Shown piece by piece: positions 40,510-59,525 of a stretch of 64,000 bases of DNA (within the stretch, counting starts at the first letter, position 1; each line of letters starts with the position of its first letter). The DNA comes from Herbiconiux sp. VKM Ac-1786 (GTDB lineage Bacteria > Actinomycetota > Actinomycetes > Actinomycetales > Microbacteriaceae), in contig NZ_JADKSG010000001.1 of the NCBI RefSeq assembly GCF_015350805.1, positions 1,598,513 to 1,662,512 of the forward strand, given 5' to 3'. The notes below the pieces were generated by a model. The model worked only from the letters and a program-made list of their open reading frames with translations, did no database searches and was not told the DNA's origin. The translations under genes and the position numbers were made by a program.

Positions 40510-40632
40510 ACTTAGGAGTGTCCGGCATCGGGTGCCCGGTTCCCGATCGGCGAGCGGCGACACGTGAGCGCAGCGGCCTGCAGTGCGCCGGGTCGACACC
40601 GGGTGGGCGGCCCGGCGCCACCGCCAGCGAGG

Positions 40633-43891: not shown

Positions 43892-46732
43892 CTAGATGGG
43901 GCCCAACTCGGCGTAGCGCTCGGCTACCTCCCGTCGCGTGTTGAGGCCCCACTTCGCATAGATGTGTCGGATGTAGGTGACGACGGTGTGCGGAGAGACC
44001 AGCAGTTCATCGGCGATTTGCTGCGTCGTGAGGCCGGAACTGATGAACGCTGCGACCTGACGTTCCCGGGGGGACAGCCCTGTTGCATCCCTGGCATCTG
44101 TGGGGCTGATGGGTCGCTGATGAACACCCTTGCTTCTCAGCATCTGGAGCACGCGGGTGGCGTCGCGGGTGGCACCGCAGCGCGTATAGAAATGCAACGC
44201 GTCGGTCAGGGCAGTTGTGGCTTGTTTCGGGGTCGCTGAGTAGATGCCGACGGCCTCGAACAGGGTTCCCGTGACGAGAGGGCGGCATTCGTCCCGAAGT
44301 TGTTCGGCAGCGGCCAGGAGGTCGTTAGCGGAGCGGTCCCGGATACCGCGCGCGGCCCGAGCGACGGCGGCGACGAAGACGTTCGTTGAATTCTTGTCGG
44401 CACGGTCCTGTGCAACCTCGACGACGACGTCAACGGCATCAAGGTCGCCGGCGACCTGACAGATGAAGGCGAGCACGAAATCGTCAGCGAAATCAGCGGG
44501 GGTGGTCATCGAGGGAGTCGCGTCCCGCAGCGTCGCGATGGCAAGGCGGGAGTATTCGTACGCTTCGTCTGGCTTCATCCGCTCTTGTGCCTCCATGGCG
44601 AGACTCCATCTGCCGGTGCGTGTGAGACCCACGCTGTCGGCAAGACTCTGGATGAGTGGGCGGACCCTCTCTCGCAGCGGTACGTCTCCGGTGCGGAGGG
44701 AGATGCGATGTAGAACGACTCCTGCGGTGGCGTTCATGAAGTCGCCAAGCCCCAGCTGCTCTCCAAGCTCGAGGACAGTTTCGGCCTGTGCCCGGGCATC
44801 GTCCAACCGGCCGAGGCTGTACAGAACCCGCGATCGGACCATCATCCAATAGGCCTCGGCGAGGACGTTCTTTGCGGCGCGGACTTCTGCCAGACCGTCG
44901 TCGGTGAGCCGAAGAGCTTCGTCGCAGTGGCCTGTGCTGTTCCGCATGAAAGCCAACCAGAGGCCTTCCGGGAGCCAGAGTCCGGTCGGGATACCGAGGT
45001 GGGTTACACGGTCCAGCGCTTGCCGCTGTAGCCGTTCGGCCGTGTCGAAGTCGCCTTGGTAGAAGACCAGCACGGATTCTGTCGCGTCGAGCGTGGCCAA
45101 AGCGAGCCCATCGCGGCCGTCGTCTGACGCCTCCCGAGCGAGAGCCAGACTGGTGCGCAGCCCTTGTTCATCAGCCTTGTTGGCGAAGTTGAGGGCGCGG
45201 ACGGAGAGCAGCCCGACGCGTGACTCGTCCGAGATGCCCGGTATGGCAAGACCCGCCGCAGACTCGCGGAGTGCGCCGTCGAAGTCCGACTCGGTGAGTT
45301 GGCGTGCCAGAGCGAGACTGACCCGCGCGCGAGCGTCAGGGCTGAGAAGCGGCCTCAGCGTGCGGCTCATTTCCATGGCCTCTTCGATTCGTCCTCCAGC
45401 GAGGACGAGGGGAAGCATGGCCGCGACTCGGTCGGCATGAGCCGCGTTACCGGAGGTGAGTTGAGCGCCGGTGATGACGAGTTCAGCGGCTCCTTGCACG
45501 TCCGTGGAGGAAAGCTGCTGAGCGGCGAGGAAGAGAAGCTCGATCGACTCATCGTCGCCGGCCTCAGCGACCGACACGATCGCCGACGCGAGAGTGGCAA
45601 CCCCTTCCCCGGCGCGGAGGCGACGGTGGATCACCTCACGGGTCATGGCCCGGCGAAGCGAGGGCGACAAGCTCTCGCTCGCCGCCGCCTGAACGGTGTC
45701 GTGACGGAAGGCGAAGGACGTGCTCGTGTCGACCACGAAACCCAGGTCGAGAAGCTCTTGAAGCGCGGGTGCGGCCGCAGCAGCGGTCTGGCCCAGGATG
45801 TCGAGTACTCCGCTGAGGGGGAAGTCCCTGCCGTAGAGACTCCCGATCTGCGCGATCCGTAGCGCATCGCGACTCAGATGACTCAGCCGGTCCCTGGCAG
45901 ATGTTCCGAAACGAGCGGGGAGGGTGTCGTCATCAAGATCGATGACCCCGCGGGCAGATTGGAGCAGACCCTCCTCCTCCAGGCCGCGGAGGAGCTCGAG
46001 GACGAGCAGGGGATACCCGGCGGCGCGAGTGAGAGCTTGCTCGACTCGTGGCCCAGGCTGACTGCCGAACGCGTCTCGAACCATGTCATCAACCGCAATC
46101 TTGTCCAGCGGCGGGAGGTCGATGGTGGGAGTGAGTTCGCCGATCCGTGCGAGGAATCGTTGATGTGCTGCACTGTAGACCCCGGTGCGGCTGGCCAGAA
46201 GCCAGTACACCGGGACGCCTTGCAGGTCGTGGATGAGTGCGGTGATGGCGCCGAGAGATCCTGCGTCCAACCACTGCAGGTCATCGACTATGACCAGCGC
46301 ACCGGACTTGCTGGCTTGGCTCTCCAGCGACTCGGCGATCATGCGGGTCAGCCAGTATTTCGGTGCCGGCGAGAGCATGAGCGGGCCCAGGTCATCGTTG
46401 GTCACCAGGGGCGGATCGGTTCGTGTTGCCGCGCCGATCAGCGCGCCCAGCGGCGAGAGAGCCGAGTCGATGTCGGGCGCGACGACCATGGTTGTCCAGT
46501 TGCGATCTGCCGCAATGTGCAATGCGTGCTGCAACAGTCGCGTCTTCCCGATACCCGGGTCGCCGGAGATGAACGTGACGGCCTGATCGCCGGCAGCGGC
46601 GACGTCGAAGCCGTGCTCGATCTGACGGGTTTCGGCTTCACGGCCGCGAATGGCCGCGTGGTAGCGGCCGGCACCCATTCCAGAGAGCGCGTCGAGGCCG
46701 AGTCGGCGCGCCTGACGGCCATCAGCAAGCAC
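43892..46732 (-). CDS. Large ATP-binding LuxR-family (LAL/MalT-like) regulator
   Basis: 946 residues. Start uncertain: GTG 46732 has GGAGGG but almost no spacing; ATG 46678 gives 928 residues starting MGAGRYHAAIRG. Domains: AAA/STAND ATPase with REAETRQIEHGF, Walker A SGDPGIGKTRLLQ and Walker B LVIVDDLQWLD; a long alpha-helical/TPR region (about 370-860); and a C-terminal LuxR HTH (LSPRERQVAAFISSGLTTQQ, then SPHTVVTYIRHIYAKW). GC and GC3 look clearly lower than in surrounding genes, which suggests separate ancestry. It is divergent from the SRPBCC gene, whose promoter bears a 14-mer shared with two other promoters, so it is a prime candidate activator of the block. Confidence 0.9.
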   Translation of the reverse strand: MLADGRQARRLGLDALSGMGAGRYHAAIRGREAETRQIEHGFDVAAAGDQAVTFISGDPGIGKTRLLQHALHIAADRNWTTMVVAPDIDSALSPLGALIGAATRTDPPLVTNDDLGPLMLSPAPKYWLTRMIAESLESQASKSGALVIVDDLQWLDAGSLGAITALIHDLQGVPVYWLLASRTGVYSAAHQRFLARIGELTPTIDLPPLDKIAVDDMVRDAFGSQPGPRVEQALTRAAGYPLLVLELLRGLEEEGLLQSARGVIDLDDDTLPARFGTSARDRLSHLSRDALRIAQIGSLYGRDFPLSGVLDILGQTAAAAAPALQELLDLGFVVDTSTSFAFRHDTVQAAASESLSPSLRRAMTREVIHRRLRAGEGVATLASAIVSVAEAGDDESIELLFLAAQQLSSTDVQGAAELVITGAQLTSGNAAHADRVAAMLPLVLAGGRIEEAMEMSRTLRPLLSPDARARVSLALARQLTESDFDGALRESAAGLAIPGISDESRVGLLSVRALNFANKADEQGLRTSLALAREASDDGRDGLALATLDATESVLVFYQGDFDTAERLQRQALDRVTHLGIPTGLWLPEGLWLAFMRNSTGHCDEALRLTDDGLAEVRAAKNVLAEAYWMMVRSRVLYSLGRLDDARAQAETVLELGEQLGLGDFMNATAGVVLHRISLRTGDVPLRERVRPLIQSLADSVGLTRTGRWSLAMEAQERMKPDEAYEYSRLAIATLRDATPSMTTPADFADDFVLAFICQVAGDLDAVDVVVEVAQDRADKNSTNVFVAAVARAARGIRDRSANDLLAAAEQLRDECRPLVTGTLFEAVGIYSATPKQATTALTDALHFYTRCGATRDATRVLQMLRSKGVHQRPISPTDARDATGLSPRERQVAAFISSGLTTQQIADELLVSPHTVVTYIRHIYAKWGLNTRREVAERYAELGPI

Positions 46733-46812
46733 CCCTCCACGGTATCGAGCCGATTGGGGCTGGACCTGGCCCCCTCACAACCACCCTCAGCACCATGCGA
46801 TATCCGCGACAG

Positions 46813-46851
46813 AACCGGGGGATGTGGGGATCCCGGGGCCGAATCTACGGT
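46813..46851 (+). promoter_or_regulatory. Shared promoter element, copy A (SRPBCC gene)
   Basis: AACCGGGGGATGTG (46813-46826), 18 bases, then CTACGGT (46845-46851; -10 TACGGT). The same 14-18-7 layout occurs at 57455 and 58089. The expected transcript start is near 46858, about 80 bases before the SRPBCC gene. Confidence 0.65.
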
Positions 46852-46936
46852 TCCACATGCGGGTTTCAGACCCGATGAAGTGGCCCCCGGTCACGCATCC
46901 CCGCCGGGAACCCGGCACAACCGGAAGGAAAATCCA

Positions 46937-47506
46937 ATGAGCGTTATGGTTCGCGACGACCTCGTGCTTTCGCACGCCGTTGTCACCGCCGACGTGACCG
47001 CACCGTTCGAGTACGTCGACATCGAGCAGTGGCTGAAGACCCTGCCGACGCACGAGTATGAGCGCTGTGCGCCTGGCGACCACAAGGCCGCCGGTTACAC
47101 CGTGGATGACGACGGCACCCCGATGTCGATCAACGTCGAGATGATCGGCACCGGCCTGGTCATCCAGCAGTACCGCTACGAGGTCGCCAGCCCCACCTAC
47201 TGCAAGATGGTCTCGATCTCCGACGTCTACTCGGCCGCCGGCTGGACCACCACCCAGGTCATCTGGGAGCTCGGCATCGAGCAGCTCGAGGGCGACCAGC
47301 TCCGCTACGTCAACACCGTCACCTCGCACCCCACCGAGGACTTCTTGAAGTTCATCATCGACAGCGGCCAGACGTTCGAGGAGGCCGCCGCCGCCCGCCA
47401 GCACGCCTCCGGCGCCCACTGCGAGGTCGAGACCCCGCACTACGCCCGCAGCATCGCTGCGTTCGCGAAGGCCCGCGCAGCCGAGGCCGAAGCGGCCAAG
47501 GCCTGA
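46937..47506 (+). CDS. SRPBCC-like protein, unknown function
   Basis: 189 residues, ATG 46937 with GGAAGGAAA upstream; the open frame extends far upstream antisense to the LuxR gene, but that part is shadow. SHAVVTADVTAPFEYVDIEQ, then a beta-rich core MSINVEMIGTGLVIQQYRYE, VYSAAGWTTTQVIWELGIEQ and a long C-terminal helix (HYARSIAAFAKARAAEAEAA). This looks like a START/SRPBCC hydrophobic-pocket fold. It is the first gene of the block and under promoter copy A. Ligand unknown. Confidence 0.7.
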   Translation: MSVMVRDDLVLSHAVVTADVTAPFEYVDIEQWLKTLPTHEYERCAPGDHKAAGYTVDDDGTPMSINVEMIGTGLVIQQYRYEVASPTYCKMVSISDVYSAAGWTTTQVIWELGIEQLEGDQLRYVNTVTSHPTEDFLKFIIDSGQTFEEAAAARQHASGAHCEVETPHYARSIAAFAKARAAEAEAAKA

Positions 47507-47526
47507 GCCGCGCCCGAGGATCAGAA

Positions 47527-47685
47527 ATGACCACGGACGACGTGCATGACGAGCACCACACCACTGAGGTGCACGAACACGGCGAAGGATGCGGACATGA
47601 AGCGGTCGCCCACGGCGACCACGTCGACTACATCCACGACTCGCACCGTCACGCCCTGCACGGGGACCACTACGACGAGCACTGA
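47527..47685 (+). CDS. His/Asp/Glu-rich microprotein (52 residues)
   Basis: ATG 47527 with GAGGA 8 bases upstream; stop TGA 47683-47685. Of 52 residues, 14 are His and 14 are Asp or Glu, with one Cys (GEGCGHEAVAHGDHVDYIHD, then SHRHALHGDHYDEH). I recall similar small actinobacterial proteins annotated, without proof, as a zinc transporter component. It has no membrane helix, so soluble metal binding or buffering is more plausible. It follows the SRPBCC gene by 20 bases and is closed off by a strong hairpin. Confidence 0.78.
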   Translation: MTTDDVHDEHHTTEVHEHGEGCGHEAVAHGDHVDYIHDSHRHALHGDHYDEH

Positions 47686-47694
47686 GTAGCCAGC

Positions 47695-47727
47695 TGATCG
47701 AAGGGGGCTACGAGCCCCCTTCGATCA
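47695..47727 (+). terminator. Perfect 15-bp hairpin after the microprotein gene
   Basis: TGATCGAAGGGGGCT (47695-47709) pairs with AGCCCCCTTCGATCA (47713-47727) around a 3-base loop. It would end or attenuate the transcript only 30 bases before the next gene, which has no obvious promoter of its own. Confidence 0.85.
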
Positions 47728-47757
47728 CGGCCGCGCCCAGAAGGGAAACCAACCTCG

Positions 47758-48753
47758 ATGTCCTTTGCGATCCGTTTCACTCACCCGGGTCCCCCTGACG
47801 TCCTGCACCTTGTGCGGGTCGAACCGCCGGAACCAGGACCGCACGACGTGCGCATCGAGGTCGCCGCGGCCGGGGTGAACAACGCCGATCTGCTCGAACG
47901 GCGCGGGCACTACCCCGTGCCACCGAACGCCCCACCCGGCCTCGGACTCGAGGTCGCCGGCACCATTACCGCGCTCGGCAGCGCGGTCACCACCTGGAAG
48001 CTCGGCGACCGGGTCTGCGCCCTCGTCGCCGGAGGTGGCTACGCCGAGGCAGCGATCGCGCCCGCAGCCCAGGTGATGCCTGTTCCGGCCGGCCTCAGCA
48101 TGATCGAAGCGGCCGCGCTACCCGAGGTTGCCTGCACCGTGTACTCCAACCTCGCCATGATCGCCGGTCTGAAGGCCGGGCAGGCTGTGCTCATCCACGG
48201 CGCCGGAGGGGGCATCGGTTCGTTCGCGATTCAGTGGGCGACCGCGATCGGCGCACAGGTCATCACCACCGCCGGCAGTGAGGCGAAGACCCAAGCGGCG
48301 CTCGACCTCGGAGCGGTCGAAGCGGTCAACTACCGCGCCGCGGACTTCGTCAGCGCGACCCTGGACGCCACCGACGGCCGGGGCGTTGACGCGATCCTGG
48401 ACATCGTCGGCACCACCTACCTCCGCCGCAACATGGAGTGCCTCGCCGACGACGGGCACCTGGTCATCATCGGAGGAGCGGTAGGACCGGTCACTTTTGA
48501 CCTGTGGGAGCTGCTCTCCCGCCGCGCGAGCATCTCCGCCACCCTCCTACGAGGCCGCCCCGCACACCAGAAAGCAGCAATCGTCGCCGGCGTCACCCGC
48601 GACGTGCTGCCCCTGCTCGAGGCGGGCGAGATCCGTGCTGTGGTCGACACTGTGTTCCCGCTTGCCGAAGCATCCCTCGCCCACGAGCTGCTCGAGTCGG
48701 GCCGAACAGTCGGGAAAGTCGTCCTCGAAACCAGTCGTCACCGGCCCCGCTAA
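47758..48753 (+). CDS. NAD(P)H:quinone oxidoreductase, zinc-independent MDR type
   Basis: 331 residues, ATG 47758 with AGAAGGGAA upstream. GroES-like N-domain (EPPEPGPHDVRIEVAAAGVN, NADLLERRGHYPVPP, PGLGLEVAGTI), no structural-zinc Cys cluster. Rossmann domain with VLIHGAGGGIGSFAIQWA (about 145-162) and a PIG3/QOR-like C-part (FDLWELLSRRASISATLLRG). It reduces quinones or enones with NADPH. It comes just before an MFS pump, suggesting detoxification (inference). Confidence 0.88.
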   Translation: MSFAIRFTHPGPPDVLHLVRVEPPEPGPHDVRIEVAAAGVNNADLLERRGHYPVPPNAPPGLGLEVAGTITALGSAVTTWKLGDRVCALVAGGGYAEAAIAPAAQVMPVPAGLSMIEAAALPEVACTVYSNLAMIAGLKAGQAVLIHGAGGGIGSFAIQWATAIGAQVITTAGSEAKTQAALDLGAVEAVNYRAADFVSATLDATDGRGVDAILDIVGTTYLRRNMECLADDGHLVIIGGAVGPVTFDLWELLSRRASISATLLRGRPAHQKAAIVAGVTRDVLPLLEAGEIRAVVDTVFPLAEASLAHELLESGRTVGKVVLETSRHRPR

Positions 48754-48765
48754 GAGACCATAATC

Positions 48766-50430
48766 ATGACTGACACCGCCGCCGACACCGCCACCGGTCC
48801 GGTTCGAGTGCTCGCGCCGTTCACGGTGCCGATCTTCCGCGCACTGTGGATCGCCGCCCTGGTCAGCAACATCGGCAGCTGGATGCAGACCGTTGGCGCG
48901 CAATGGTTCATGGTCGAGCAGAACAGCCCACCGCTGCTCATCGCACTCGTTCAGACAGCTTCCGCCGCACCCGTGCTTCTGCTCGGAATCCCCGCCGGAG
49001 TTCTCGGTGAGCTCCTCAACCGACGGGGCCTGCTGATCTGGGTGCAGGCCGCGCAAGTGCTCATCAGCGCCGGCCTCGTCGCCCTCACCGCGGCGGGAGA
49101 GATGACCCCCTACCTGCTGCTCGTGCTGACACTGCTGCTGGGCGCCGCATCCGCGGTGCAGCTGCCCGCCTACGAAGCGATCTCCGCCGAGATCGTGCCG
49201 ACACGCATGATCCCGAATGCGGCCTCTCTTAGCGCGATCTCCGTGAACCTCGCCCGAGCGATCGGTCCGGCCATCGCGGGCCTGCTGCTGTCCAGCCTCG
49301 GCGTTGCGTTCGTCTTCGCGTTGAACCTCGCCTCCTTCGCGGTGTTCTTGATCGTGCTGATCGGGTGGCGAAGCTACCGCCCCGACCTGCACCAGCCCGA
49401 ACGATTCATCGATGCGACCCGGGCTGGCGTCCGCTACGTCACCCACTCCGGCGTCGTTCGCCGCCTCTATGTCCGGCTGGGCCTGTTCGTCGTGCCGGGC
49501 AGCGTCCTCTACGCGCTGCTGCCGGTACTGGCGACCGACCAGTTGGGCCTGGACTCCGCCGGTTACGGGGTCCTCCTCGCCGGTCTCGGCGTCGGAAGCG
49601 TTGCGGCAGCATTCTTCGCCCCGATCGTGCGGGACCGGTTCGGACCCAACCACACCGTGCTGATCTCCTCAGCACTGTTCGGCGCAGGAACAGTGGTCGT
49701 GGCCCTCTCCCCGTCTCTAGCGCTGACTCTGCCGGTGCTCGCCGTCGTCGGCGCCGCCTGGATCGGAGTCGTCGCCACCCTCAACGGGGTCGTCGAGTCC
49801 TTCCTCCCCGTCTGGGTTCGAGCTCGAGGGCTGTCCATCTACCAGATGGTGCTGTTCGGTTCCCTCGCCGTCGGAGCCGCAGGGAGCGGCGGAGTCGCCG
49901 GCTGGGCCGGCACCGCCATCACAACGGCGGCCGCCGGCATCATCGTGATCGTCGTCACCGCCTCACAGCTGCTGTGGCCCCTTCTCCCGACCGCCGAGAA
50001 GAAGCGCCCCACCGCACCGTTCCCGCTCGCACCCGACCAAGGCGCCGACATCGATCCCCAAGGGCTGACCCTCGTGCTCGTCCGCTACGACGTGCCCGAG
50101 GAGAACCGGGCGGCGTTCGTGGAGCAGATGCGACTCGTGGAACACAGCCGCCGGCGCACCGGAGCCCGGACGTGGACGCTCTACCAGGACCGTGAGAGCC
50201 CGGGCGAGCTCGTTGAAGTCTTCGGGGTGGGGAGCTGGCAGGAGCACCTGCAGCAACACAGCACCCGCCCCACCCAGTACGACGACGAGACCATCCACAC
50301 CGCCAGCGCCCTCGCCTCAACCATCGACGTGCACCACCTCATCCAAGTCGGCCGCACCCGCATCGCCTTCCCCGTCACCTCAACTCAGATCGCCCGACGT
50401 CACCACATGAAGCAGGAGAACCAGCCATGA
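48766..50430 (+). CDS. MFS exporter (MFS_3 type) with C-terminal soluble domain
   Basis: 554 residues. Twelve TM helices over about residues 15-410 begin with FTVPIFRALWIAALVSNIGS and MQTVGAQWFMVEQ, typical of the EntS/MFS_3 group. After the last TM, a 130-residue tail (LVLVRYDVPEENRAAFVEQM, RTWTLYQDRESPGELVEVFG) resembles an antibiotic-biosynthesis-monooxygenase-like ferredoxin fold seen in other MFS_3 proteins. The stop overlaps the next ATG (ATGA). Export of a small organic compound or siderophore is likely; the substrate is unknown. Confidence 0.85.
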   Translation: MTDTAADTATGPVRVLAPFTVPIFRALWIAALVSNIGSWMQTVGAQWFMVEQNSPPLLIALVQTASAAPVLLLGIPAGVLGELLNRRGLLIWVQAAQVLISAGLVALTAAGEMTPYLLLVLTLLLGAASAVQLPAYEAISAEIVPTRMIPNAASLSAISVNLARAIGPAIAGLLLSSLGVAFVFALNLASFAVFLIVLIGWRSYRPDLHQPERFIDATRAGVRYVTHSGVVRRLYVRLGLFVVPGSVLYALLPVLATDQLGLDSAGYGVLLAGLGVGSVAAAFFAPIVRDRFGPNHTVLISSALFGAGTVVVALSPSLALTLPVLAVVGAAWIGVVATLNGVVESFLPVWVRARGLSIYQMVLFGSLAVGAAGSGGVAGWAGTAITTAAAGIIVIVVTASQLLWPLLPTAEKKRPTAPFPLAPDQGADIDPQGLTLVLVRYDVPEENRAAFVEQMRLVEHSRRRTGARTWTLYQDRESPGELVEVFGVGSWQEHLQQHSTRPTQYDDETIHTASALASTIDVHHLIQVGRTRIAFPVTSTQIARRHHMKQENQP

Positions 50431-50873
50431 CCACCACCATCGACGACCTCGTCGGAGCCTGGAGATTCGTCAGCTCCGAGGAAGTCTTCGCCGACGGCGA
50501 ATGCCGACCCCAGTTCGGCCCGAAAGCCGACGGGTACCTCAGCTACAGCCCCAACGGCATCGTCACTGCGGTCCTGGGCAGCATGACCCGCCCGGCCAGC
50601 AGCGCCCCCACCCCCGAGACCGCCACCGACGCGGAGATCGTCGCCATGGCACGCGACTTCATCGCCTACGGCGGCCCGTTCACCCTCGACTCCGACACGG
50701 ACACCGTCACCCACCACATCGACATCGCCCTGTTCCCCGGATGGCAGGGCGGAACCCAGGTCCGCACCTTCACCGTCCACGGGAACCTGCTCTACGGCAA
50801 GACACTCCCCGCGATCACGCCCGACGGCCGAAGCTTCCACGTCGAGTTGACGTGGGGCCGGGTGCACTCATAA
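50427..50873 (+). CDS. Lipocalin-like domain protein
   Basis: 148 residues, coupled to the MFS gene by ATGA. LVGAWRFVSSEEVFADG and GPKADGYLSYSPNGIVTAVL with FIAYGGPFTLDSDTDTVTHH match the Lipocalin_5 family of small beta-barrel proteins. It has no signal peptide. It may bind a hydrophobic ligand that the neighbouring oxidoreductase and pump handle (inference). Confidence 0.82.
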   Translation: MTTTIDDLVGAWRFVSSEEVFADGECRPQFGPKADGYLSYSPNGIVTAVLGSMTRPASSAPTPETATDAEIVAMARDFIAYGGPFTLDSDTDTVTHHIDIALFPGWQGGTQVRTFTVHGNLLYGKTLPAITPDGRSFHVELTWGRVHS

Positions 50874-50891
50874 CCCCGCATCCCGCAACTG

Positions 50892-51111
50892 AGTCGGCTG
50901 CTCCAGCACGGCGACTTCGGGCTGGGGGCCGGAGACCGCCTCGACGGTGAAAGCCGCGCTCGAGGTGCTCACCGAACGCATCAACGCCGCGACCGGTGGC
51001 CAGATTCCATCCATCCTCAACACATTCGCGCCCACCACCGGAACTGCGGCAGGGTTCCGCACACCCGCATTCGAGGCCGGGCTATCCGTTCCCGGCTACC
51101 ACCTCCACTAA
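50892..51111 (+). pseudogene. Remnant of an acetolactate decarboxylase gene (alsD)
   Basis: One frame starting at about 50895 reads RLLQHGDFGLGAGDRLDGE, matching LLTHGDFGLGTFNHLDGEM of the intact enzyme at 21.7-22.4 kb. After a frame change, the sequence from about 50950 reads AALEVLTERINAATGGQ, then TTGTAAGFRTPAFEAGLSVP and GYHLH followed by TAA, matching GTVAGFRTPSFEAAISVAGYHLHY. About 100 central residues and the C-terminal zinc-site region are missing. It is therefore a doubly truncated, frameshifted copy. Confidence 0.82.
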
Positions 51112-51151
51112 ATCGACCATCCCCGATCACCTCTCACTCAAAAGGAACGTC

Positions 51152-52270
51152 ATGAGCACCCCCTCCCGCCACGTCGCGTCCCTCGTCGACGCCGCACCCA
51201 CCTTCGAAAGCGACCTCGGCTCGGTCGCCCAACTGAGCACCGGCAACTTCCCGATCCTGGACGGCATGACCCTCAAGAGGATCGTGCTCGAGCCCGGTGC
51301 GATCCGGGAACCGCAGTGGAACGTCAACTCGAACCAGATCGCCTACGTCACCCGCGGGACCGTGCTGGTATCGATGCTCGCCACCGGCGACGAGTTCGCA
51401 ACGTTCCTGGTCAAGACCGGGCAGATGTATCACGTCGCCTCCGGCGCGATCTACCACATCGAGAACGTGGGGGAGGGGCAGGCGGAGATCATCGCCGCCC
51501 TCCGCACCGGCGACCCGCAGCACTTCTCTTTCCAGAACAGCGTCAACGTGATGAGCAACGCCGTGCTCGGCAACACCTACGACCAGCCGGACTCCGCATT
51601 CGAGGGGTTCCCGCGCGGTGACGCCCCGCAGATCATCCGCAGAACTGGTACCGCCAGCATCCCCGACAACGTCGGTCTGCCCAACGCCCACCTGTTCGAC
51701 GCCGAAGGGCAGATCGCCCCGCTGGCCTACCCGTACGGACACGCGAAGCTGGCCCGCAAACAGTTCTGGGCAGCCCTGGAAGACCTGTCGATGTACTCCC
51801 TGAACATCACCGGCGGCGGCATGCGCGAACCGCACTGGCACCCGATCACCGCCGAGCTCGGGTACGTCAAGAGCGGCCACGCCCGCATGACCGTCCTGGA
51901 CCCGGACGGCACCGTCGACACCTACGAGCTGAACCCCGGCCAGGCGTACTTCGTACCGCGTGCATACCCGCACCACATCGAAGCGCTCAGCGAGGAGGGG
52001 ATCGAATTCCTGATCTTCTTCGACCAGTTCGTCCCCGGTGACGTCGGCTACCGCGCCACCGCGACCGCCTTCTCCCGGGAGGTGCTCGCCGCCACGTTCC
52101 AAGTCCCCGAACGAGAGCTGCCGGAGTTCCCGTTCACCCCCATCGACCCGCTCATCGTGCCGCGGAACAATCCCCGCGACCCGATTGCCACGCCGAAGGG
52201 GCCGGCCACCCGGTCATTCAGAGCTTCGAGCCGGGCGAGGACTGGTTCTGGGACGACCGCACCAGCCTGA
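51152..52270 (+). CDS. Bicupin (oxalate decarboxylase-like), N-terminal cupin lacking metal ligands
   Basis: 372 residues from ATG 51152 (AAAGGAA upstream). Two cupin domains: about 25-170 and 195-340. The C-terminal cupin keeps metal-binding residues: His228 and His230 in MREPHWHPITAELGY, and the later His in YPHHIEAL. The equivalent N-terminal site reads IREPQWNVNSNQIAYV (Gln55, Asn57), so it should not bind metal in the usual way. The last 20 or so residues (about PATRSFRASSRARTG onward) are out-of-frame translation of a zinc-finger gene remnant, so the native C-terminus was probably lost by deletion. Substrate unknown. Confidence 0.8.
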   Translation: MSTPSRHVASLVDAAPTFESDLGSVAQLSTGNFPILDGMTLKRIVLEPGAIREPQWNVNSNQIAYVTRGTVLVSMLATGDEFATFLVKTGQMYHVASGAIYHIENVGEGQAEIIAALRTGDPQHFSFQNSVNVMSNAVLGNTYDQPDSAFEGFPRGDAPQIIRRTGTASIPDNVGLPNAHLFDAEGQIAPLAYPYGHAKLARKQFWAALEDLSMYSLNITGGGMREPHWHPITAELGYVKSGHARMTVLDPDGTVDTYELNPGQAYFVPRAYPHHIEALSEEGIEFLIFFDQFVPGDVGYRATATAFSREVLAATFQVPERELPEFPFTPIDPLIVPRNNPRDPIATPKGPATRSFRASSRARTGSGTTAPA

Positions 52271-52372
52271 CACCGCCCGAGAGCCACCCCCACCCACAAA
52301 CAGTTCCAAGACCGGCAGATCGTCTCCCCGGAACTGGAGAGCGCTCCTGGAAGAGCGCGAAGGACTTGTTCG
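52183..52372 (+). pseudogene. C-terminal remnant of a UBP-type zinc-finger protein gene
   Basis: A different frame from the bicupin reads DCHAEGAGHPVIQSFEPGED then WFWDDRTS and TPPESHP, the well-known C-terminal half of bacterial UBP-type zinc-finger proteins. A further frame change restores SSPRNWRALLEEREG. The N-terminal zinc ligands are gone. It overlaps the end of the bicupin reading frame, so a deletion appears to have fused the two genes. Confidence 0.7.
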
Positions 52373-52405
52373 ACCCACCACCACACCCACCAGGAGGTTC
52401 CAACC

Positions 52406-53878
52406 ATGAGCACCACCATCGATCAGAACGCCCCCGCCACTCCCGTCTACACCGACGTCCCGGTCGGGATCGACGCGACGGGGCAGCGCACCGAGTTCGA
52501 CAGCATGGGCACCGTCGACGTCCCTGCAGACCGCTACTGGGGTGCGCAGACCCAGCGGTCGCTGCAGCACTTCTCGATCGGCAACGACCACATGCCCATC
52601 GAGGTGTACCGCGCCTACGGCATCGTGAAGAAAGCGGCCGCCCTGGTCAACCAGGAAGCAGGCCGACTCCCGGACTGGAAGGCGAAGGTTATCGTGCAGG
52701 CCGCTGACGAGACCATCGCCGGCAAGCTCGATCAGGAGTTCCCGCTGTACGTGTGGCAGACCGGGTCGGGCACGCAGAGCAACATGAACATCAACGAGGT
52801 GCTCTCCAACCGGGCCATCCAGCTGCTCGGCGGCACGCTGGGTTCTCAGGTGCCGGTGGGCCCGAACGACGACGTGAACATGGCGCAGTCGAGCAACGAC
52901 TCGTTCCCGACCGCGATGCACATCGCTGCGATCACCGAGATCGACGAGCGCCTCCTCCCGAAGCTGCGCGAACTGCACGCCGAGATCGACGCGAAGGCGA
53001 AGAAGTGGATGGGCGTCGTGAAGATCGGCCGCACCCACCTCGAGGACGCCGTGCCGCTCACGGTGGGCCAGGAGTGGTCGGGCTATGCGGCGATGCTCGA
53101 GGGCGTCATCCGTGAGGTCGAGCACTCCCGCGAGGGGTTGCTGCAGCTCGCGCTCGGTGGAACCGCGGTCGGCACGGGCCTGAATGCGCCCGCGGGGTTC
53201 TCGGAGAAGGTCGCGGCGAAGATCGCGGAGCTGACGGGCAAGAAATATGTCACCGCCGCGAACAAGTTCGAGGCGCAGGGCTCCCTCGATGCCATCGTGC
53301 GCGCCCACGCGGCCCTCCGCGGGGTCGCGGTGTCGTTGATGAAGATCGCCAACGACATGCGGTGGCTCGCCTCGGGCCCCCGCACCGGGTTCGCCGAACT
53401 CGTGCTGCCCTCCAACGAGCCGGGGTCGTCAATCATGCCGGGCAAGGTGAACCCGACCCAGTGCGAGGCGATCGTGATGATCTCCATCCAGGTGCTGGGC
53501 GATGACTCGGCGGTGGCGTTCGCGGGCTCGCAGGGCAACTTCGAGCTCAACGCGATGCGGCCGATCATCATCAACAACTTCCTGCACTCGGCCCGCATCC
53601 TGGGCGACGGGGTCGAGAAGTTCCTCACCTACTCGGTGAAGGGCACCGAGCTGAACGAGAAGAAGATCGCCTCCTACGTGGGCGAGAGCCTGATGCTCGT
53701 CACCGCCCTCAGCCCCGTGATCGGCTACCAGAACGCCGCCCACATCGCCGAGAGCGCCCTCGCCAACGACCAGACCCTCCGCGAAGCGGCGCTGGCCTCG
53801 GGCAAAGTCACCGCGGAGCAGTTCGACAAGATCGTCGTCCCCGCGTCCCTCGTCGGGAACGGCGTCGGCGGCGCCTGA
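52406..53878 (+). CDS. fumC: Class II fumarate hydratase
   Basis: 490 residues, with GGAGG before ATG 52406. It has an extra N-tail of about 25 residues before TEFDSMGTVDVPADRYWGAQ. Conserved segments: VWQTGSGTQSNMNINEV, MAQSSNDSFPTAMH, KIGRTHLEDAVPLTVGQE, and the fumarase/aspartase signature GSSIMPGKVNPTQCE near residue 340. It interconverts fumarate and malate without an iron-sulfur cluster. Its presence in an accessory block suggests a stress-resistant or second copy (inference). It overlaps the ThrE gene by one base. Confidence 0.94.
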   Translation: MSTTIDQNAPATPVYTDVPVGIDATGQRTEFDSMGTVDVPADRYWGAQTQRSLQHFSIGNDHMPIEVYRAYGIVKKAAALVNQEAGRLPDWKAKVIVQAADETIAGKLDQEFPLYVWQTGSGTQSNMNINEVLSNRAIQLLGGTLGSQVPVGPNDDVNMAQSSNDSFPTAMHIAAITEIDERLLPKLRELHAEIDAKAKKWMGVVKIGRTHLEDAVPLTVGQEWSGYAAMLEGVIREVEHSREGLLQLALGGTAVGTGLNAPAGFSEKVAAKIAELTGKKYVTAANKFEAQGSLDAIVRAHAALRGVAVSLMKIANDMRWLASGPRTGFAELVLPSNEPGSSIMPGKVNPTQCEAIVMISIQVLGDDSAVAFAGSQGNFELNAMRPIIINNFLHSARILGDGVEKFLTYSVKGTELNEKKIASYVGESLMLVTALSPVIGYQNAAHIAESALANDQTLREAALASGKVTAEQFDKIVVPASLVGNGVGGA

Positions 53879-55164
53879 TGATCAAGAAGACCGTTCGGGC
53901 TGCGGCCCCGGCGACGAGCGAATCCGATCAGGATCTCGTCGCCGGGGCGGCAGCCCTGCTGCAGGCCTCCGGAGAATCCACCTCGGTGACTCTCGCCGCC
54001 GTGGAACGGATGAACCGAGGCCTCGGGACCGACTTCGCCTTGGTCCCTGGATGGACGTCGGTGACCGTCACCGACCAGTCCGCACAGAACGCGCTGCCGG
54101 CCAGGATCGTGCCGGCAGCGCCGACCGGCATCTCGATGCGGGCCGTCGCCGTGCTGATGCGCACCATCGACCAGCTCGGCGACAAAGCGGCCGGCCGGGC
54201 CGACCTGGTCACAACGCTCGGCCGCGCCCACGCAGTGCGGCCCGCGAACCTCTGGATCTTCCTGATCGCCTGCGCAACCGGGGCCGGCTCCCTGGCGATC
54301 ATCTTCGGCGCTCAGGATGCCACGGCGGTACTGCTGGCCGCCGGCAGCGCCGCGCTCGGCGGTGCGATCAGGCGTCTGCTCGGCCGGGCGCACATCGGAC
54401 CGATCGGCCAGGTGTTCGCCGCCGCGTTCCTCGCCGGCATCATCGGCGGGCTCGCGGTGCAGGCCGATCTCAGTTCGTCGCTGCGGCTGATCGCGGTGTG
54501 TCCGGCGATGATCCTGGTGCCCGGCCCGCACATCCTGAACGGTGCCCTCGACCTGCTGGCCCTGCGCATCCCGCTCGGCTTCGCCCGACTCGGGTACGCC
54601 GCACTCCTGCTGCTCTCAATCGGCACCGGCCTGGCGATCGCGCTGGCGCTCTTCGGCACCAACCTGCCCACCGACCCGGCCGGTCGCACCGTACCGTTTT
54701 GGCTCGACGTCGTCGCCGCCGCGATCGCCGCAGCGTCGTACCCGGTGTACTTCTCGATGCCCTACCGGCTCATCGTCTGGCCGGTGATCATCGGGGCGGT
54801 GGCGCACGGGTTGCGGTGGTGGGCGATGAGCGTCTGGGACATGAACATCGTGGTGGGCGCGTTCCTCGCCTGCCTGCTCGTCGGGATCGTGCTCGCCCCG
54901 GTCGCGCACCGGCTGCACATCCCCTTCGCCGGCATCGGCTTCGCGGCCGTGGTGTCGCTCGTGCCGGGGGTGTTCGTGTTCCGGGCGATCGACGCCCTCG
55001 ACAGCCTGCCGTTCGGGGGAGCTGACCCGCAGCTGCTCGGCGGGATCTCCGATGGCACCACTGCGGTGCTCATCATCATGGCGATGGCAGTCGGTCTGGC
55101 CGTGCCGATGCACCTCTACGGGCAGTTGCAGCAGCAACGATCACGACGCGGGGCACGCGCATGA
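53878..55164 (+). CDS. Threonine/serine exporter family membrane protein (ThrE)
   Basis: 428 residues, ATG overlapping the fumarase stop by one base. The N-terminal soluble DUF1212 part (about 15-115: LLQASGESTSVTLAAVERMN, IVPAAPTGISMRAVAVLMRT) is followed by about ten TM helices; the second half is the ThrE_2 module (WPVIIGAVAHGLRWW, FAAVVSLVPGVFVFRAIDAL). Corynebacterial ThrE exports Thr and Ser, but many family members have unknown substrates. ATGA coupling to the YoaK gene. Confidence 0.88.
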   Translation: MIKKTVRAAAPATSESDQDLVAGAAALLQASGESTSVTLAAVERMNRGLGTDFALVPGWTSVTVTDQSAQNALPARIVPAAPTGISMRAVAVLMRTIDQLGDKAAGRADLVTTLGRAHAVRPANLWIFLIACATGAGSLAIIFGAQDATAVLLAAGSAALGGAIRRLLGRAHIGPIGQVFAAAFLAGIIGGLAVQADLSSSLRLIAVCPAMILVPGPHILNGALDLLALRIPLGFARLGYAALLLLSIGTGLAIALALFGTNLPTDPAGRTVPFWLDVVAAAIAAASYPVYFSMPYRLIVWPVIIGAVAHGLRWWAMSVWDMNIVVGAFLACLLVGIVLAPVAHRLHIPFAGIGFAAVVSLVPGVFVFRAIDALDSLPFGGADPQLLGGISDGTTAVLIIMAMAVGLAVPMHLYGQLQQQRSRRGARA

Positions 55165-55856
55165 ACAGGGCGATCTTCATCCCGACCGCGCTCAGCCTGA
55201 TCGCCGGCGTGACCGACGTCACCAGCTGGCTGCTGCTCGGCGGGTTCTTCTCCGCCCACGTCACCGGCAACCTGGTCGTGATCGCCGCCGATATCGTCAC
55301 CGGCACCCGGCCCGACATCGTCGCTCTGCTGGCGATCCCCGTGTTCATCCTCACCACGGCGATCGCGACTGTCGTCGCCCGGCGGATCGGCTCGAACGCT
55401 CCCCGGGTGACTACGGTGCTGTTCGGTGCGCAGGCCGCGTTCCTGGTGTCCGCCGGCGTGCTCTCGTTCACGACTGTCGCGTCGGCGCATCCGAAGGACG
55501 GGATGGCCATCGTGATCGGGATCTGCGCGGTGTGTGCGATGGCGTTCCAGAACGCCTACCTGCATATCGTCCCGCCGAGGGCGCTGTCCACCGCGGTGAT
55601 GACCGGCAACCTCGTTGCCGCGACCGTTGCCGCCACCGACATTCTTCGCACCCGCGGCGAAGCGCCTGACGCCAGGGCGAAGTGGACTGCGAGCTGGCCA
55701 CTCCTGGCTGGGTTCATCGGCGGCTGCCTGATTGGTGCCGGGGGAGCTACCCTCTTCAGTGACCACGCCGCCATCATCCCTGCGGTGCTCGCGGTCGCTC
55801 TCCTGATCGTCGTGCTCGCACCCCGCACCCGAACCCGAACGAGAGCGGCAACCTGA
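55161..55856 (+). CDS. YoaK/DUF1275 family membrane protein
   Basis: 231 residues, six TM helices. The family pattern is clear: ALSLIAGVTDVTSWLLLGGF then FSAHVTGNLVVIAADIVTG, AFQNAYLHIVPPRALSTAVM and TGNLVAATVAATDILRTRG. Start and upstream stop overlap as ATGA. Transport is suspected for the family but no substrate is proven. It is the last gene of the fumC-thrE-yoaK operon. Confidence 0.88.
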   Translation: MNRAIFIPTALSLIAGVTDVTSWLLLGGFFSAHVTGNLVVIAADIVTGTRPDIVALLAIPVFILTTAIATVVARRIGSNAPRVTTVLFGAQAAFLVSAGVLSFTTVASAHPKDGMAIVIGICAVCAMAFQNAYLHIVPPRALSTAVMTGNLVAATVAATDILRTRGEAPDARAKWTASWPLLAGFIGGCLIGAGGATLFSDHAAIIPAVLAVALLIVVLAPRTRTRTRAAT

Positions 55857-55927
55857 TTTCGGGCAACCACTGAGGGGTGGAGTGAGGGGGCCAGTCAGGC
55901 GACTCGAACGACTCGTAGCTTTGAAGC

Positions 55928-56467
55928 ATGAGTGATCAAAATCACCTGCGCGGTGACGCGGCACCGTGGGAGCAACTGCTGGACCCCTGGCGGCCCCTTC
56001 CCGCAGTTGTGATCGACCGCCGACTGAATGTGCTCGCAGCGACTGACGTCGCTCAGAGTCTTTCGGGGGCCTTTCAGATCGGGGCGAACATGGCCCGGTT
56101 CACATTCCTATCAGCGGATAGCCAGCCCGCGCACCCGAGCTGGCGGGAGGCGGCATCCGCAACTGCTGGCCTTCTCCGCTCTTTCGTCGACGAGCATGAC
56201 GGCGACCGCGCCTCCCAGCGCATCCTGGGGGAGCTGGCGGCCGAATCGCGCGACTTCTCGGAAATGTGGGCGGACCCCAACACGCGGATGCCCACAACAG
56301 GCCCAATCGTGTTCGAAGGAACCCCCGCCGGAACAGTTACCTGCACATACAGTGTGCTGGGTGTGTCAGGTCAGGACGACTGCGCAGTCCTCGTGTTCGT
56401 CCCCTCTGACGCTGCCGGACGGGAGGCGGTTGAACGCTTGGCGGCGAGCTCGTCGGTTTCGAACTGA
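55928..56467 (+). CDS. Free-standing MmyB-type ligand-binding domain protein (no HTH), copy 1
   Basis: 179 residues. It aligns with the ligand-binding domain (MLTR_LBD) of MmyB-type regulators but has no DNA-binding part: LLDPWRPLPAVVIDRRLNVL then AATDVAQSLSGAFQIGANMA. Its paralogue at 57524 has W..(P)PA...DR.LNV.A..D.A...S..F..G.N..R..F in the same order. The C-part reads IVFEGTPAGTVTCTYSVLGV. ATG 55928 lies about 7 bases after a -10-like TAGCTT, suggesting a leaderless mRNA. Its last 97 bases overlap the convergent regulator gene. It may sense the same ligand as, or pair with, that regulator (inference). Confidence 0.72.
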   Translation: MSDQNHLRGDAAPWEQLLDPWRPLPAVVIDRRLNVLAATDVAQSLSGAFQIGANMARFTFLSADSQPAHPSWREAASATAGLLRSFVDEHDGDRASQRILGELAAESRDFSEMWADPNTRMPTTGPIVFEGTPAGTVTCTYSVLGVSGQDDCAVLVFVPSDAAGREAVERLAASSSVSN

Positions 56468-57354
56468 CCCGGCCGGTCACGTAGCTCGGCACCATGATTG
56501 GTTGCCTTGCCGCGTGCGGCGAGATAGGCGAGGGCGTCGGCTCCTCGTGAGCCCGCTGCAGCGAAGTGCAGGGTGACGGAGAGGTTGGCCGGTCCGGGAA
56601 CGTTGAGCGTCTGCCAGCTGAGTTCCACCCAGCCGAAGGTCTCCACCTCGAACATGCTCGTGCCGCTGAGCTGCGGTTTTGCCTCGTGCAGCGCCCAGAT
56701 TCGTCGGAACGCGGGGTGGCGCTCGGAGAGGAGGCCAAGGACCTCGCGGAATTTCGGGTCGGCGGGGTCGCCGTTGAATCGGAGAGCGGCCGTCAGATTG
56801 CGAAGCGCGCCTTCCCAGCCGGCCTCTTCGACAGTGCGCCGGTCATAGTCCGAGGGTTGGGCGCAGAAGGCTGCATAGTCGTCGTAGGCGGCGACCAGGT
56901 GGTTAATCCCTGGCACCAGAATGCTGGACGCGAGCGCAGTGGCCAGCGGATTCACGGCTAGGACGTTCTGGTTGGCGTCGCAGACATAGGCCGGCATGTG
57001 CGACCACTGGGTGAGCAGCTCCGCCACAGCGTCGTTGATCTGCTCTTCGGGGGCAGCACGAATGAAGGGTTGCGGCTGGGCGAGTTTCATCAGGTACTGC
57101 CGGCCCTCCCCGTCGAGCAGAAGCGCACGAGCGAGACCGACGACGACCTGGTCCGAGGGGCGGCTGTCTTTGCCCTGTTCAAGGCGCAGGTAGTAGTCCA
57201 GGCTGACACCGGCGAGGTCGGCGACTTCTTCTCGTCGAAGTCCTGGGACTCGACGGCCCGGGAGTCGCAGGATGCCGACATCTTCGGGCTGCACCGTCTC
57301 ACGACGAGCGCGTAGGAAGGCGCCCAGCGTGTTCTCGGGCCCGATCGAGCGCAT
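56371..57354 (-). CDS. MmyB-type XRE-family transcriptional regulator
   Basis: 327 residues, ATG 57354 with GGAGG upstream. N-terminal HTH_31 (about 8-80: LGAFLRARRETVQPEDVGIL, GLRREEVADLAGVSLDYYLR, LEQGKDSRPSDQVV). The ligand-binding domain starts at about residue 105 (LLTQWSHMPAYVCDANQNVL) and runs through WVELSWQTLNVPGPANLSVT. Mycobacterial homologues bind a fatty-acid-like ligand. The last 32 residues overlap the convergent neighbour and may not be functional. A -10-like TATAGT precedes the gene on the minus strand. It is flanked on both sides by HTH-less LBD proteins. Confidence 0.9.
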   Translation of the reverse strand: MRSIGPENTLGAFLRARRETVQPEDVGILRLPGRRVPGLRREEVADLAGVSLDYYLRLEQGKDSRPSDQVVVGLARALLLDGEGRQYLMKLAQPQPFIRAAPEEQINDAVAELLTQWSHMPAYVCDANQNVLAVNPLATALASSILVPGINHLVAAYDDYAAFCAQPSDYDRRTVEEAGWEGALRNLTAALRFNGDPADPKFREVLGLLSERHPAFRRIWALHEAKPQLSGTSMFEVETFGWVELSWQTLNVPGPANLSVTLHFAAAGSRGADALAYLAARGKATNHGAELRDRPGQFETDELAAKRSTASRPAASEGTNTRTAQSS

Positions 57355-57454
57355 GCGACGTCCTCCAGAAATGGGTGTGACTATAGGATTTATTCTTCCC
57401 TACAAGACATATCTGGCGGGGGCGAAAACGGCTGTCTGTGGCCTGGTTCGGGAC

Positions 57455-57493
57455 AACCGGCGGCTGTGAAGGTGACCCCGGTTTTACTACCTT
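57455..57493 (+). promoter_or_regulatory. Shared promoter element, copy C (LBD protein 2)
   Basis: AACCGGCGGCTGTG (57455-57468; 12 of 14 identical to copies A and B), 18 bases, then CTACCTT (57487-57493; -10 TACCTT). It lies 31 bases before the LBD gene. Confidence 0.62.
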
Positions 57494-57523
57494 GGGCACG
57501 GGCGGAGTGAATAGCGTTGGGGC

Positions 57524-58054
57524 ATGCGCGACGAGGGTTCACCGGGCGTCGTTCCCGCTGAAGCGTTGCAGATGATCAACGCGTGGACCGCGGTCCCGGC
57601 TTTCATCAGGGACCGTTACCTCAACGTCATCGCGTCCAACGACCTCGCCAAAGAGATTTCGCCGATCTTCAACGAGGGCGTGAACCTCGTCCGGGTCGTT
57701 TTCTGCGCGGGGCAGCTGCCAGCCGGAGTGCAGACTGTTCCTCAGCAGCTCGCTGACAAGCTGAAAGAGGCTCTGGCCCTGTACGAGTGGGACGCGGAGT
57801 TCGAAGAGCTTGTGGAGGAGCTATCCGCCGCCAGCCCTGAATTCGTGCAAGCGTGGGCTGGAGCCTCCGACACAGTTGAACCTCTGCCGTTCTCCGTGCA
57901 TCACTCACAGGTCGGGCCGCTCTCCCTCACCTATCAAGCGATGACAATGCCAGGTCAATTCGATCTATCTCTCGCCGTGCTGCGCGGCACCGACGACGAC
58001 TCCCGAGCCGCTCTGCAGCGTCTTGCCGAGCTCACCGGTCCGGACCAGTCCTAG
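57524..58054 (+). CDS. Free-standing MmyB-type ligand-binding domain protein (no HTH), copy 2
   Basis: 176 residues. MINAWTAVPAFIRDRYLNVI then ASNDLAKEISPIFNEGVNLV and RVVFC follow the MLTR_LBD pattern directly from the N-terminus, so the helix-turn-helix is absent rather than hidden upstream. FVQAWAGAS and a short beta-rich C-part (HHSQVGPLSLTYQAMTMPGQ) complete the domain. It is a paralogue of the protein at 55928. It has its own promoter with the shared 14-mer. Possible roles: anti-regulator, ligand buffer, or heteromeric partner of the MmyB-type regulator. None is proven. Confidence 0.75.
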   Translation: MRDEGSPGVVPAEALQMINAWTAVPAFIRDRYLNVIASNDLAKEISPIFNEGVNLVRVVFCAGQLPAGVQTVPQQLADKLKEALALYEWDAEFEELVEELSAASPEFVQAWAGASDTVEPLPFSVHHSQVGPLSLTYQAMTMPGQFDLSLAVLRGTDDDSRAALQRLAELTGPDQS

Positions 58055-58088
58055 CCGAATCGAACCGACCAGGTGAGGTCGGCGGCCA

Positions 58089-58127
58089 AACCGGGGGATG
58101 TGAGCTCGGCAACGCTGCTTCTACTGT
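58089..58127 (+). promoter_or_regulatory. Shared promoter element, copy B (MFS gene)
   Basis: AACCGGGGGATGTG (58089-58102), identical to copy A, then 18 bases and CTACTGT (58121-58127; -10 TACTGT). The MFS start codon is 63 bases further on. Confidence 0.65.
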
Positions 58128-58190: not shown

Positions 58191-59525
58191 ATGCCCCACC
58201 TCACCGGCCCCGGCGAGGACCCCATCGCACCATCAGCGCAGCGCAGCGCGACCACCACCCGGCACGCGCCGCAGCGGCGACGAGGTCGCCACTCCGACAC
58301 TTACGGGCTGACAGCGATGACCAGCGTCCTCTTCCTGTTCTTCGCCGCGGCAGCAGCACCGTCCCCCCTGCTTCCCCTCCTATTGAAGGAGTGGGGATTT
58401 CAGCCGTGGCTTCTCACCTTCGCGTTCGCGGTCTACGCCCTCGCCATTCTGGTGGCGTTACTGGTGGTCGGGCGGCTTTCCGACCACATCGGCCGCCGCC
58501 CCGTGATCCTGGCCGCCACAACCCTCGAGCTCGCATCCATGATCATCTTCTTGGTTTCCGAGAACATCTGGGTCTTCGTCATCGCTCGCACCCTGCAGGG
58601 ACTCGCAACAGGAGCAGCGACCGGTGCGATCTCCGCCGCCATCGCCGACTTCGCGGGCGAACACCGCGCTCGTCTAACCGCCACCCTCGGAAGCGTCGGA
58701 CCGCTCGCAGGCCTTGCCGCAGGAGCTGTCTTCGCCGGAACTATCGCCGAGTTCCAGCCCGACCCCAAACCAGTCATCTTCGCCGTCCTGGCAGTCCTTT
58801 TCGCGATCGGCCTGGCCGGGATCGCAGCGGTACGGGAATCGTCATCCAAGCGGCCAGGCGCAGCCCGCAGCCTCACCCCGCGAGTCGCCGTTCCCCGCGC
58901 AGCCAGACGGGCGTTCTGGAAGGCAATCCCCATCGCGGTCGCCGTATGGATGGCCGGCGGGTTCTACCTCTCCGTCGTCGGCGAGACAGCTCGAGACCTG
59001 CTCGCCATCACCGATGAACTCGACACCAGCCTCCTCATCGCTGGCCTCTCCGCCACAGGTGCGGTCACGGTCATCATCAGCCAGCGACTCCGCGCCCGTA
59101 CCGGCGCGACCATCGGAGTGCTCTTGATCGCCCTGGGCATGCTCAGCGGCATTCTCGCGATCCAGAACGGCTCGGTCGTGCTCCTGATCATCGGAACCGT
59201 CGTGAGTGGCGCCGGTTTCGGCATGGCATTCGCCGGCGCCGTCGGGCTCGTCATCCCGCATGCCCGAGCTCACGAACGCGGAGAGCTGTTCTCCGCGATC
59301 TACGTCGTCAACTACCTCGCCTTCGGAATCCCCGCGATCGGCGCGGGTCTTTTCATCACGCCCCTTGGACTTTCAGCTGCCGTCCTGCTCTACGCGGCCG
59401 CGGTCGTCGCTGTCGCCGTCATCGGCGTCGCCGTGCAGGCACTCCCGAACAGGGATGCCCGCCGCACTCAGCGGCACGAACCACCAAGCCCCGTCATCAG
59501 CCCTGAAAAGAGACCCGCACCATGA
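58191..59525 (+). CDS. MFS transporter (drug-efflux-like)
   Basis: 444 residues; ATG 58191 has AAAGGA 10 bases upstream (58175-58180). A 40-residue basic N-tail precedes twelve TM helices. The intracellular loop between TM2 and TM3 has [17 protein letters not shown], and TM4/5 has [19 protein letters not shown], as in 12-TM multidrug exporters. The C-tail is hydrophilic. The stop overlaps the ATG of the broken acetate-permease gene (ATGA). It is transcribed from promoter copy B. Confidence 0.88.

Follow-up and report, generated by a model that had tools for sequence, protein, structure and literature searches.

Three promoters in an accessory gene block of the actinobacterium Herbiconiux sp. 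VKM Ac-1786 carry copies of one 14-mer ahead of a putative -10 hexamer, and the question raised by this locus is what reads them. The block lies in a stretch of 64,000 nucleotides of contig NZ_JADKSG010000001.1, hereafter the window, and a preliminary description of it proposed that a single activator or an alternative sigma factor serves all three promoters, naming a divergent LuxR-type regulator and an MmyB-type regulator as the nearest candidates. We report that the conserved unit is a longer tandem element, present at two of the three sites, and that this element would very likely be the operator of a MalT-like activator encoded at 43892-46732, one of the large ATP-binding LuxR regulators (LAL).

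The repeated sequence and its conserved form

The sequence AACCGGGGGATGTG occurs identically at 46813-46826 and 58089-58102, and with two differences at 57455-57468, just as first described; likewise, each copy is followed by 18 nt and then CTACNNT, so that the pattern AACCGGNGGNTGTG-N18-CTACNNT has exact matches in the window at 46813, 57455, and 58089, all on the + strand. Nine window 14-mers lie within three mismatches of the sequence, and CTACNNT stands at the N18 distance in all three of those with at most two mismatches and in none of the six with three. In shuffled windows the whole 39-mer is matched 0.06 times on average at up to three mismatches, and 0 of 100 shuffles reached three matches; the 14-mer (up to two mismatches) joined to CTACNNT is expected about 5e-5 times per 64 kb, a figure that ignores the freedom with which motif, spacing, and hexamer were chosen in the preliminary description. 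The genome scan proposed there as a check returned no unrelated matches: across 3,892,806 bases in four contigs, the 39-mer is found at up to two mismatches only at the three sites, and the reversed control gave none. Without the -10, AACCGGNGGNTGTG is nothing out of the ordinary: one mismatch being allowed, it has 24 matches and its reversed control 21. What is rare is the combination of the 14-mer with the -10, not the 14-mer alone. Outside its own genome the full pattern is nearly absent, with a one-mismatch match in 1 of 98 relatives.

The 14-mer is not the natural unit. The unit conserved in related loci begins 19 nt farther upstream, and in it C(A/G)(T/G)GnGATGT-like half-sites recur as a direct repeat whose period is 22 bp. 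Such tandems, or boxes, are present in the window at 46794-46826 and 58070-58102 (boxes 1 and 3), and the genome has no others at up to one mismatch (reversed control, 0). Conservation of the 14-mer in related loci, which had been named among the refuting tests, holds for its core but not for its AACC part, and this prefix is therefore rejected as a recognition element. Placed side by side, the promoters that adjoin the divergent LAL gene in Herbiconiux moechotypicola and on a Rhodococcus qingshengii plasmid both keep CGGGGGATGTG, and in each a further GATGT-like half-site stands upstream of it at exactly 22 bp. Among pairs of G.GA[TG][GA]T in 18 sources with a LAL locus, 21 stand at 22 bp, all of them within the tandem boxes that we tabulated, and no other spacing in the range of 8 to 60 occurs more than 6 times.

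In 23 of 24 tandem boxes, several of which are near-duplicates from sister species, TANNNT lies 19 or 20 nt downstream of the final GATGT; the box of Actinoplanes solisilvae has AACGTT in the -10 position. The distance to the -10, first described as constant, is thus near-constant rather than strict, with 18 or 19 nt between TGTG and TANNNT in related promoters. The element extends about 50 bases upstream of the -10, and the centre of its proximal half-site lies about 37 bp ahead of the predicted transcription start.

The tandem was also scored with matrices. The first, trained with the window left out on seven related promoters of the gene behind box 1 (named SRPBCC in the preliminary description), scores 30.5 at 46794 and 21.9 at 58070, and the best scores in three shuffled windows are 5.5, 8.2, and 9.8. 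The second was trained only on boxes before other genes, themselves found with the first matrix or the pattern, and its third-best score in the window, 12.0, falls inside the gene of a protein termed LBD2. The exact tandem pattern gave 18 matches in 12 of 17 other genomes or records, 15 of them in the gene clusters compared here and 3 elsewhere.

Linkage of the element to LAL genes

The gene that diverges from box 1 codes for a protein with the size and architecture of the large ATP-binding LuxR regulators (about 900 amino acids, N-terminal ATPase, C-terminal LuxR helix-turn-helix), which are STAND ATPases. Its Pfam matches are AAA_16 (1.1e-13, residues 29-175) and GerE (4.6e-13, residues 886-937), with weak TPR matches below the cut-off. 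The best NCBIfam match is MalT (equivalog NF003420), confined to the helix-turn-helix (4.6e-10) and, at 38.2 bits against a cut-off of 537, short of whole-protein membership.

Within the family, 4 of 349 genomes, own genome included, encode the SRPBCC protein; neither Pfam nor NCBIfam gave a match to it at E 0.001, and its name, which is not confirmed, is kept here for convenience. A species-genome collection scanned with an SRPBCC alignment yielded 60 named loci. Divergent LAL orthologues adjoin the SRPBCC gene in 12 loci, namely the window, Microbacterium (6), Actinoplanes, Williamsia (at its second SRPBCC copy), Promicromonospora, H. moechotypicola, and the Rhodococcus plasmid. The box was found by the second matrix in 10 of 12 SRPBCC promoters that have a divergent LAL gene vs 1 of 53 that do not (Fisher 4e-9, uncorrected for ancestry; 65 promoters, a count that leaves out L030 and L031, which represent the same genomes as L043 and L040). 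In the two misses, M. hominis and M. trichothecenolyticum, the tandem stands instead between the LAL gene and a gene for an XRE/MmyB-type regulator, beyond the LAL 3' end, and the single exception among promoters without a divergent LAL gene, Paractinoplanes aksuensis (L036), encodes a 919-residue AAA_16 and GerE protein convergent with the same operon.

A LAL protein of at least 55% identity was found in 11 of 50 other genomes or records, and these 11, together with the own genome, all have a box at the locus (the lists of 50 omit 11 of the 60 loci, L048, L050, L051, L065, L068, L083, L084, and L088-L091, with L083 sharing its genome with L075). LAL proteins of lower identity, from Curtobacterium (42%) and M. 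galbinum (45%), also accompany a box, here before an XRE gene. Moreover, when the LAL protein, and not the motif, was used to search 394 genomes of the class, at least two carriers besides the own genome were detected, at 60% and 50% identity. Both loci have a tandem inside the fetched flanks of 1.5 kb: one has CATGCGATGT-N12-CATGCGATGT beyond the LAL 3' end (score 27.6), and the other, L151, has a weaker tandem immediately ahead of an XRE/MmyB gene (17.8). The LuxR domains of box-bearing LAL proteins are similar in their recognition region, with a common SPHTVVT(H/Y)IRHIYAKWG-like stretch that varies in R. qingshengii, Curtobacterium, and M. galbinum, and more so in P. aksuensis.

The genes behind the boxes are led by the SRPBCC operon (11 promoters), followed by the XRE/MmyB gene in seven genomes (M. 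hominis, M. trichothecenolyticum, Microbacterium sp. UFMG61 and sp. USTB-Y, Curtobacterium, M. galbinum, and the genome G375). In Curtobacterium the XRE frame begins 230 nt past the box; the neighbour of its SRPBCC gene is an XRE gene in the place of LAL, and no box points at SRPBCC. Other targets are the YaaH-family transporter of L060, of which L055 has a cut-down relative, and a second LAL-like regulator in R. qingshengii and perhaps, by position, in L147 and L150. As a box target, the MFS pump was seen in the window only. On the R. qingshengii plasmid (L029, 17714-19528) the SRPBCC and His-rich genes are duplicated in tandem, with a box only at the LAL-proximal copy.

Which protein reads the element

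Known LAL operators offer the closest comparison. MalT multimerises upon binding its inducer and occupies its boxes cooperatively (PMC4381067); these sites are direct repeats (PMC6099782, citing Vidal-Ingigliardi 1991), and the E. coli and Klebsiella box, GGGGA(T/G)GAGG, overlaps the -35 (PMC7567727, PMC6099782). The LAL/STAND architecture and the two direct-repeat sites, one of them in the -35 position relative to predicted starts, are the same in the window, where the box 1 half-site GGGGATGTGG matches the MalT consensus at 9 of 10 positions, with a similar relation to the -10, and the box 3 half-site GGGGATGTGA at 8 of 10, neither box having the full consensus. The differences are GATGTG here in place of GATGAGG, the fixed 22-bp period, and the lack of maltose genes. 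Actinoplanes sp. SE50/110 MalT (PMC7567727) is likewise an actinobacterial LuxR/MalT-like activator with a GGATGA core overlapping the -35 and a region-confined regulon, but its site is an inverted repeat, TCATCC-N5-GGATGA, and its 51-gene region depends on maltose. TpdR of Rhodococcus jostii TMP1 (PMC6099782), also an actinobacterial LAL activator, has two direct repeats, the proximal one overlapping the -35 and the upstream one needed for activity; it differs in its 15-nt repeat, TnnAAnnGCGGAnTC, its 28-bp period, and its role in tetramethylpyrazine catabolism, and its binding to the repeats is put forward in that paper as a proposal.

Given the 9 of 10 match to MalT, the similar relation to the -10, and the common LuxR recognition stretch, we assign the element to the LAL protein, probably as an activator. 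Co-occurrence, repeat geometry, and likeness to known LAL operators support the part of the preliminary description that foresaw one activator and put forward the divergent LuxR protein.

Its other candidate, the XRE/MmyB-type regulator, has an XRE helix-turn-helix and MLTR_LBD, as in the MmyB/MltR family (PMC3406030), and is encoded between the sites; were it the reader, LAL would be a linked passenger. Relatives of it are present in the fetched stretch of 5 of the 12 box loci (L037, L039, L043, L055, and L060), and none was detected (tblastn, E 1e-8) in those of L029, L033, L034, L035, L036, L038, and L086, where one could lie outside the stretch. Since the box precedes the XRE/MmyB gene itself in the seven genomes listed above, the protein looks like a target, not the reader. 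Proteins of this family are also expected on two-fold symmetric sites (PMC3406030), whereas the element is a direct repeat, and we regard this candidate as very unlikely. Still less probable is the other possibility raised at the outset, that an alternative sigma factor recognises the element as a promoter class of its own, even though the distance from element to -10 is near-constant and an ECF-sigma-like open reading frame, judged by eye, lies nearby (39910-40599, - strand, about 3.3 kb beyond the LAL 3' end). The -10 is an ordinary sigma70-like TANNNT, the element reaches far upstream of it as two half-sites about two helical turns apart, and nearly all LAL-less SRPBCC promoters lack it. 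In addition, tblastn detected no relative of the ECF-like frame in the 17 other stretches with a LAL locus, a sigma factor encoded elsewhere not having been searched for; neither a -10 foreign to sigma70 nor a conserved adjacent sigma gene was found.

The sign of the regulation also needs to be weighed, because LAL could sit on the tandem as a repressor or autoregulator. The start codon called for the divergent LAL gene lies 62 bp from the beginning of box 1, and a repressing LAL protein, SCO6993, is described in Streptomyces (PMC9628970). Yet the proximal half-site stands where E. coli and Actinoplanes MalT activate (PMC7567727), and many boxes precede genes other than the divergent partner of LAL, so we hold repression to be unlikely.

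Several observations count against the assignment to LAL as an activator, beginning with the site at 57455. This site resembles the other two beyond chance and has TANNNT at 20 nt, but it scores -30.6 with the first matrix, -5.7 with the second, and -12.9 in a further scoring and has no distal half at 22 bp, and it is rejected as a full tandem; the expectation that all three sites are read alike is supported for 46813 and 58089 only. Its core, GGCGGCTGTG, has altered the A of GATGT that is kept in the search patterns and in nearly all boxes, and no box, nor anything like 57455, was found before the LBD2 relative in H. moechotypicola. A direct repeat of CGGCTGT, read from the sequence, is present in the same promoter, and its 32-bp spacing would be three helical turns. 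The site may be weak or altered, or the promoter may be of other origin. Furthermore, the tandem pattern relaxed to one mismatch is found in 50 of 50 genomes tested and is thus non-specific and unsuitable for extending the regulon. XRE genes accompany LAL in 5 of the 12 box loci compared, so that linkage alone cannot prove the binder; the linkage test ignores shared ancestry, and its second matrix is not fully independent of the first matrix and the pattern. P. aksuensis has a box although its LAL is only 29% identical to that of the window, L151 holds a second, non-promoter-like match (14.7) beside its weak box, and the class search, having scored two candidates per genome, sets a lower bound on the number of carriers.

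For the LAL protein as activator, we infer the following course, from ligand to transcription start and operon extent. LAL would sense a ligand, pass into its ATP form, and multimerise; two of its C-terminal LuxR domains would then sit head to tail on the half-sites 22 bp apart (about two helical turns), on one face of the DNA. With the proximal half-site replacing the -35 hexamer, bound LAL would recruit the housekeeping polymerase to the TANNNT -10, and so drive both the SRPBCC/His-rich/quinone-reductase/MFS/lipocalin unit and the MFS pump at 58191.

Gene neighbourhood and significance

Table 1. Positions of the promoter elements and genes in the window
Feature	Position	Strand	Remarks
Distal half-site CATGCGATAT, tandem box 1	46794..46803	+	
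Proximal half-site CGGGGGATGTG, tandem box 1	46816..46826	+	Core of the 14-mer at 46813-46826; -35 position
Predicted -10 hexamer TACGGT, box 1	46846..46851	+	Same distance in related promoters
Third 14-mer copy with N18 and CTACCTT	57455..57493	+	Without distal half-site at 22 bp
Direct repeat CGGCTGT, LBD2 promoter	57429-57435 and 57461-57467	+	32 bp apart
Distal half-site CAGGTGAGGT, tandem box 3	58070..58079	+	
Proximal half-site CGGGGGATGTG, tandem box 3	58092..58102	+	
Predicted -10 hexamer TACTGT, box 3	58122..58127	+	
LAL regulator, 946 aa as called from GTG	43892..46732	-	AAA_16 N-terminal, GerE/LuxR helix-turn-helix C-terminal; proposed reader of the element
SRPBCC protein (name from the preliminary description), 189 aa	46937..47506	+	First gene behind box 1
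His-rich protein, 52 aa	47527..47685	+	Probable operon member; several loci have it beside the SRPBCC gene
PIG3-type NAD(P)H quinone oxidoreductase	47758..48753	+	Probable operon member; TIGR02824, 407 bits, cut-off 297
MFS_3 transporter	48766..50430	+	Probable operon member; Pfam MFS_3, 1.4e-125
Lipocalin_5 protein	50427..50873	+	Probable operon member; Pfam, 1e-27
XRE/MmyB-type regulator (HTH_31 and MLTR_LBD)	56371..57354	-	Without tandem box here
LBD2, stand-alone MLTR_LBD protein	57524..58054	+	No helix-turn-helix match; Pfam, 2.9e-27
MFS_1 transporter	58191..59525	+	Behind box 3; Pfam MFS_1, 2.4e-32

Around these features, the XRE/MmyB regulator is flanked by two stand-alone MLTR_LBD proteins, LBD1 (55928-56467) and LBD2, neither with a helix-turn-helix match, and the genes of LBD1 and the regulator overlap convergently at 56371-56467. 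Directly past the MFS pump, 59522-59905 is a broken remnant that by eye resembles a GPR1/FUN34/YaaH-family transporter, of which an intact one stands behind its own tandem box in L060. Many SRPBCC promoters have an inverted repeat after the -10, such as CGGGT-TTCAG-ACCCG (46852-46895 in the window, by eye); a conserved hairpin of the 5' leader was rejected, with a folding z below -2 in only 3 of 13 SRPBCC leaders and most not beyond their shuffles.

SRPBCC promoters of Mycobacterium and Mycolicibacterium that lack LAL share a different, GGCTAGCACTACC-like element, found in 17 of 53 LAL-less promoters vs 0 of 12 with LAL (L050, L052-L054, L056, L058, L059, L065, L066, L069, L073, L074, L077, L079, L080, L083, and L085), which suggests that the operon has been rewired there to another regulator.

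Direct-repeat operators of LAL regulators are already known from MalT and TpdR, and the present case adds a probable new operator and regulon of that type; the half-site, the 22-bp period, the gene set, and the arrangement of LAL before XRE/MmyB were not found in the open-licence literature, among the matches listed. Within that same scope, no description was found of this clade of LAL proteins, which is represented in Herbiconiux, Microbacterium, Rhodococcus, Williamsia, Actinoplanes, and Promicromonospora, and more distantly in Curtobacterium; it is assigned here a precise putative operator, short and strongly patterned, and a small regulon. The boxes before XRE/MmyB genes suggest a hierarchy from LAL to XRE/MmyB, in which the two regulators first proposed as candidates are tiers, not alternatives. 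More speculatively, and in our view possible rather than probable, the locus may represent a regulatory cassette common to several genera: a STAND activator, acting through a tandem operator of its own, would govern detoxification and export genes and, in many genomes, a second-tier XRE/MmyB regulator, stand-alone domains like LBD2 would act as ligand buffers or co-regulators, and the tier that controls the core SRPBCC operon would have been rewired between genomes.

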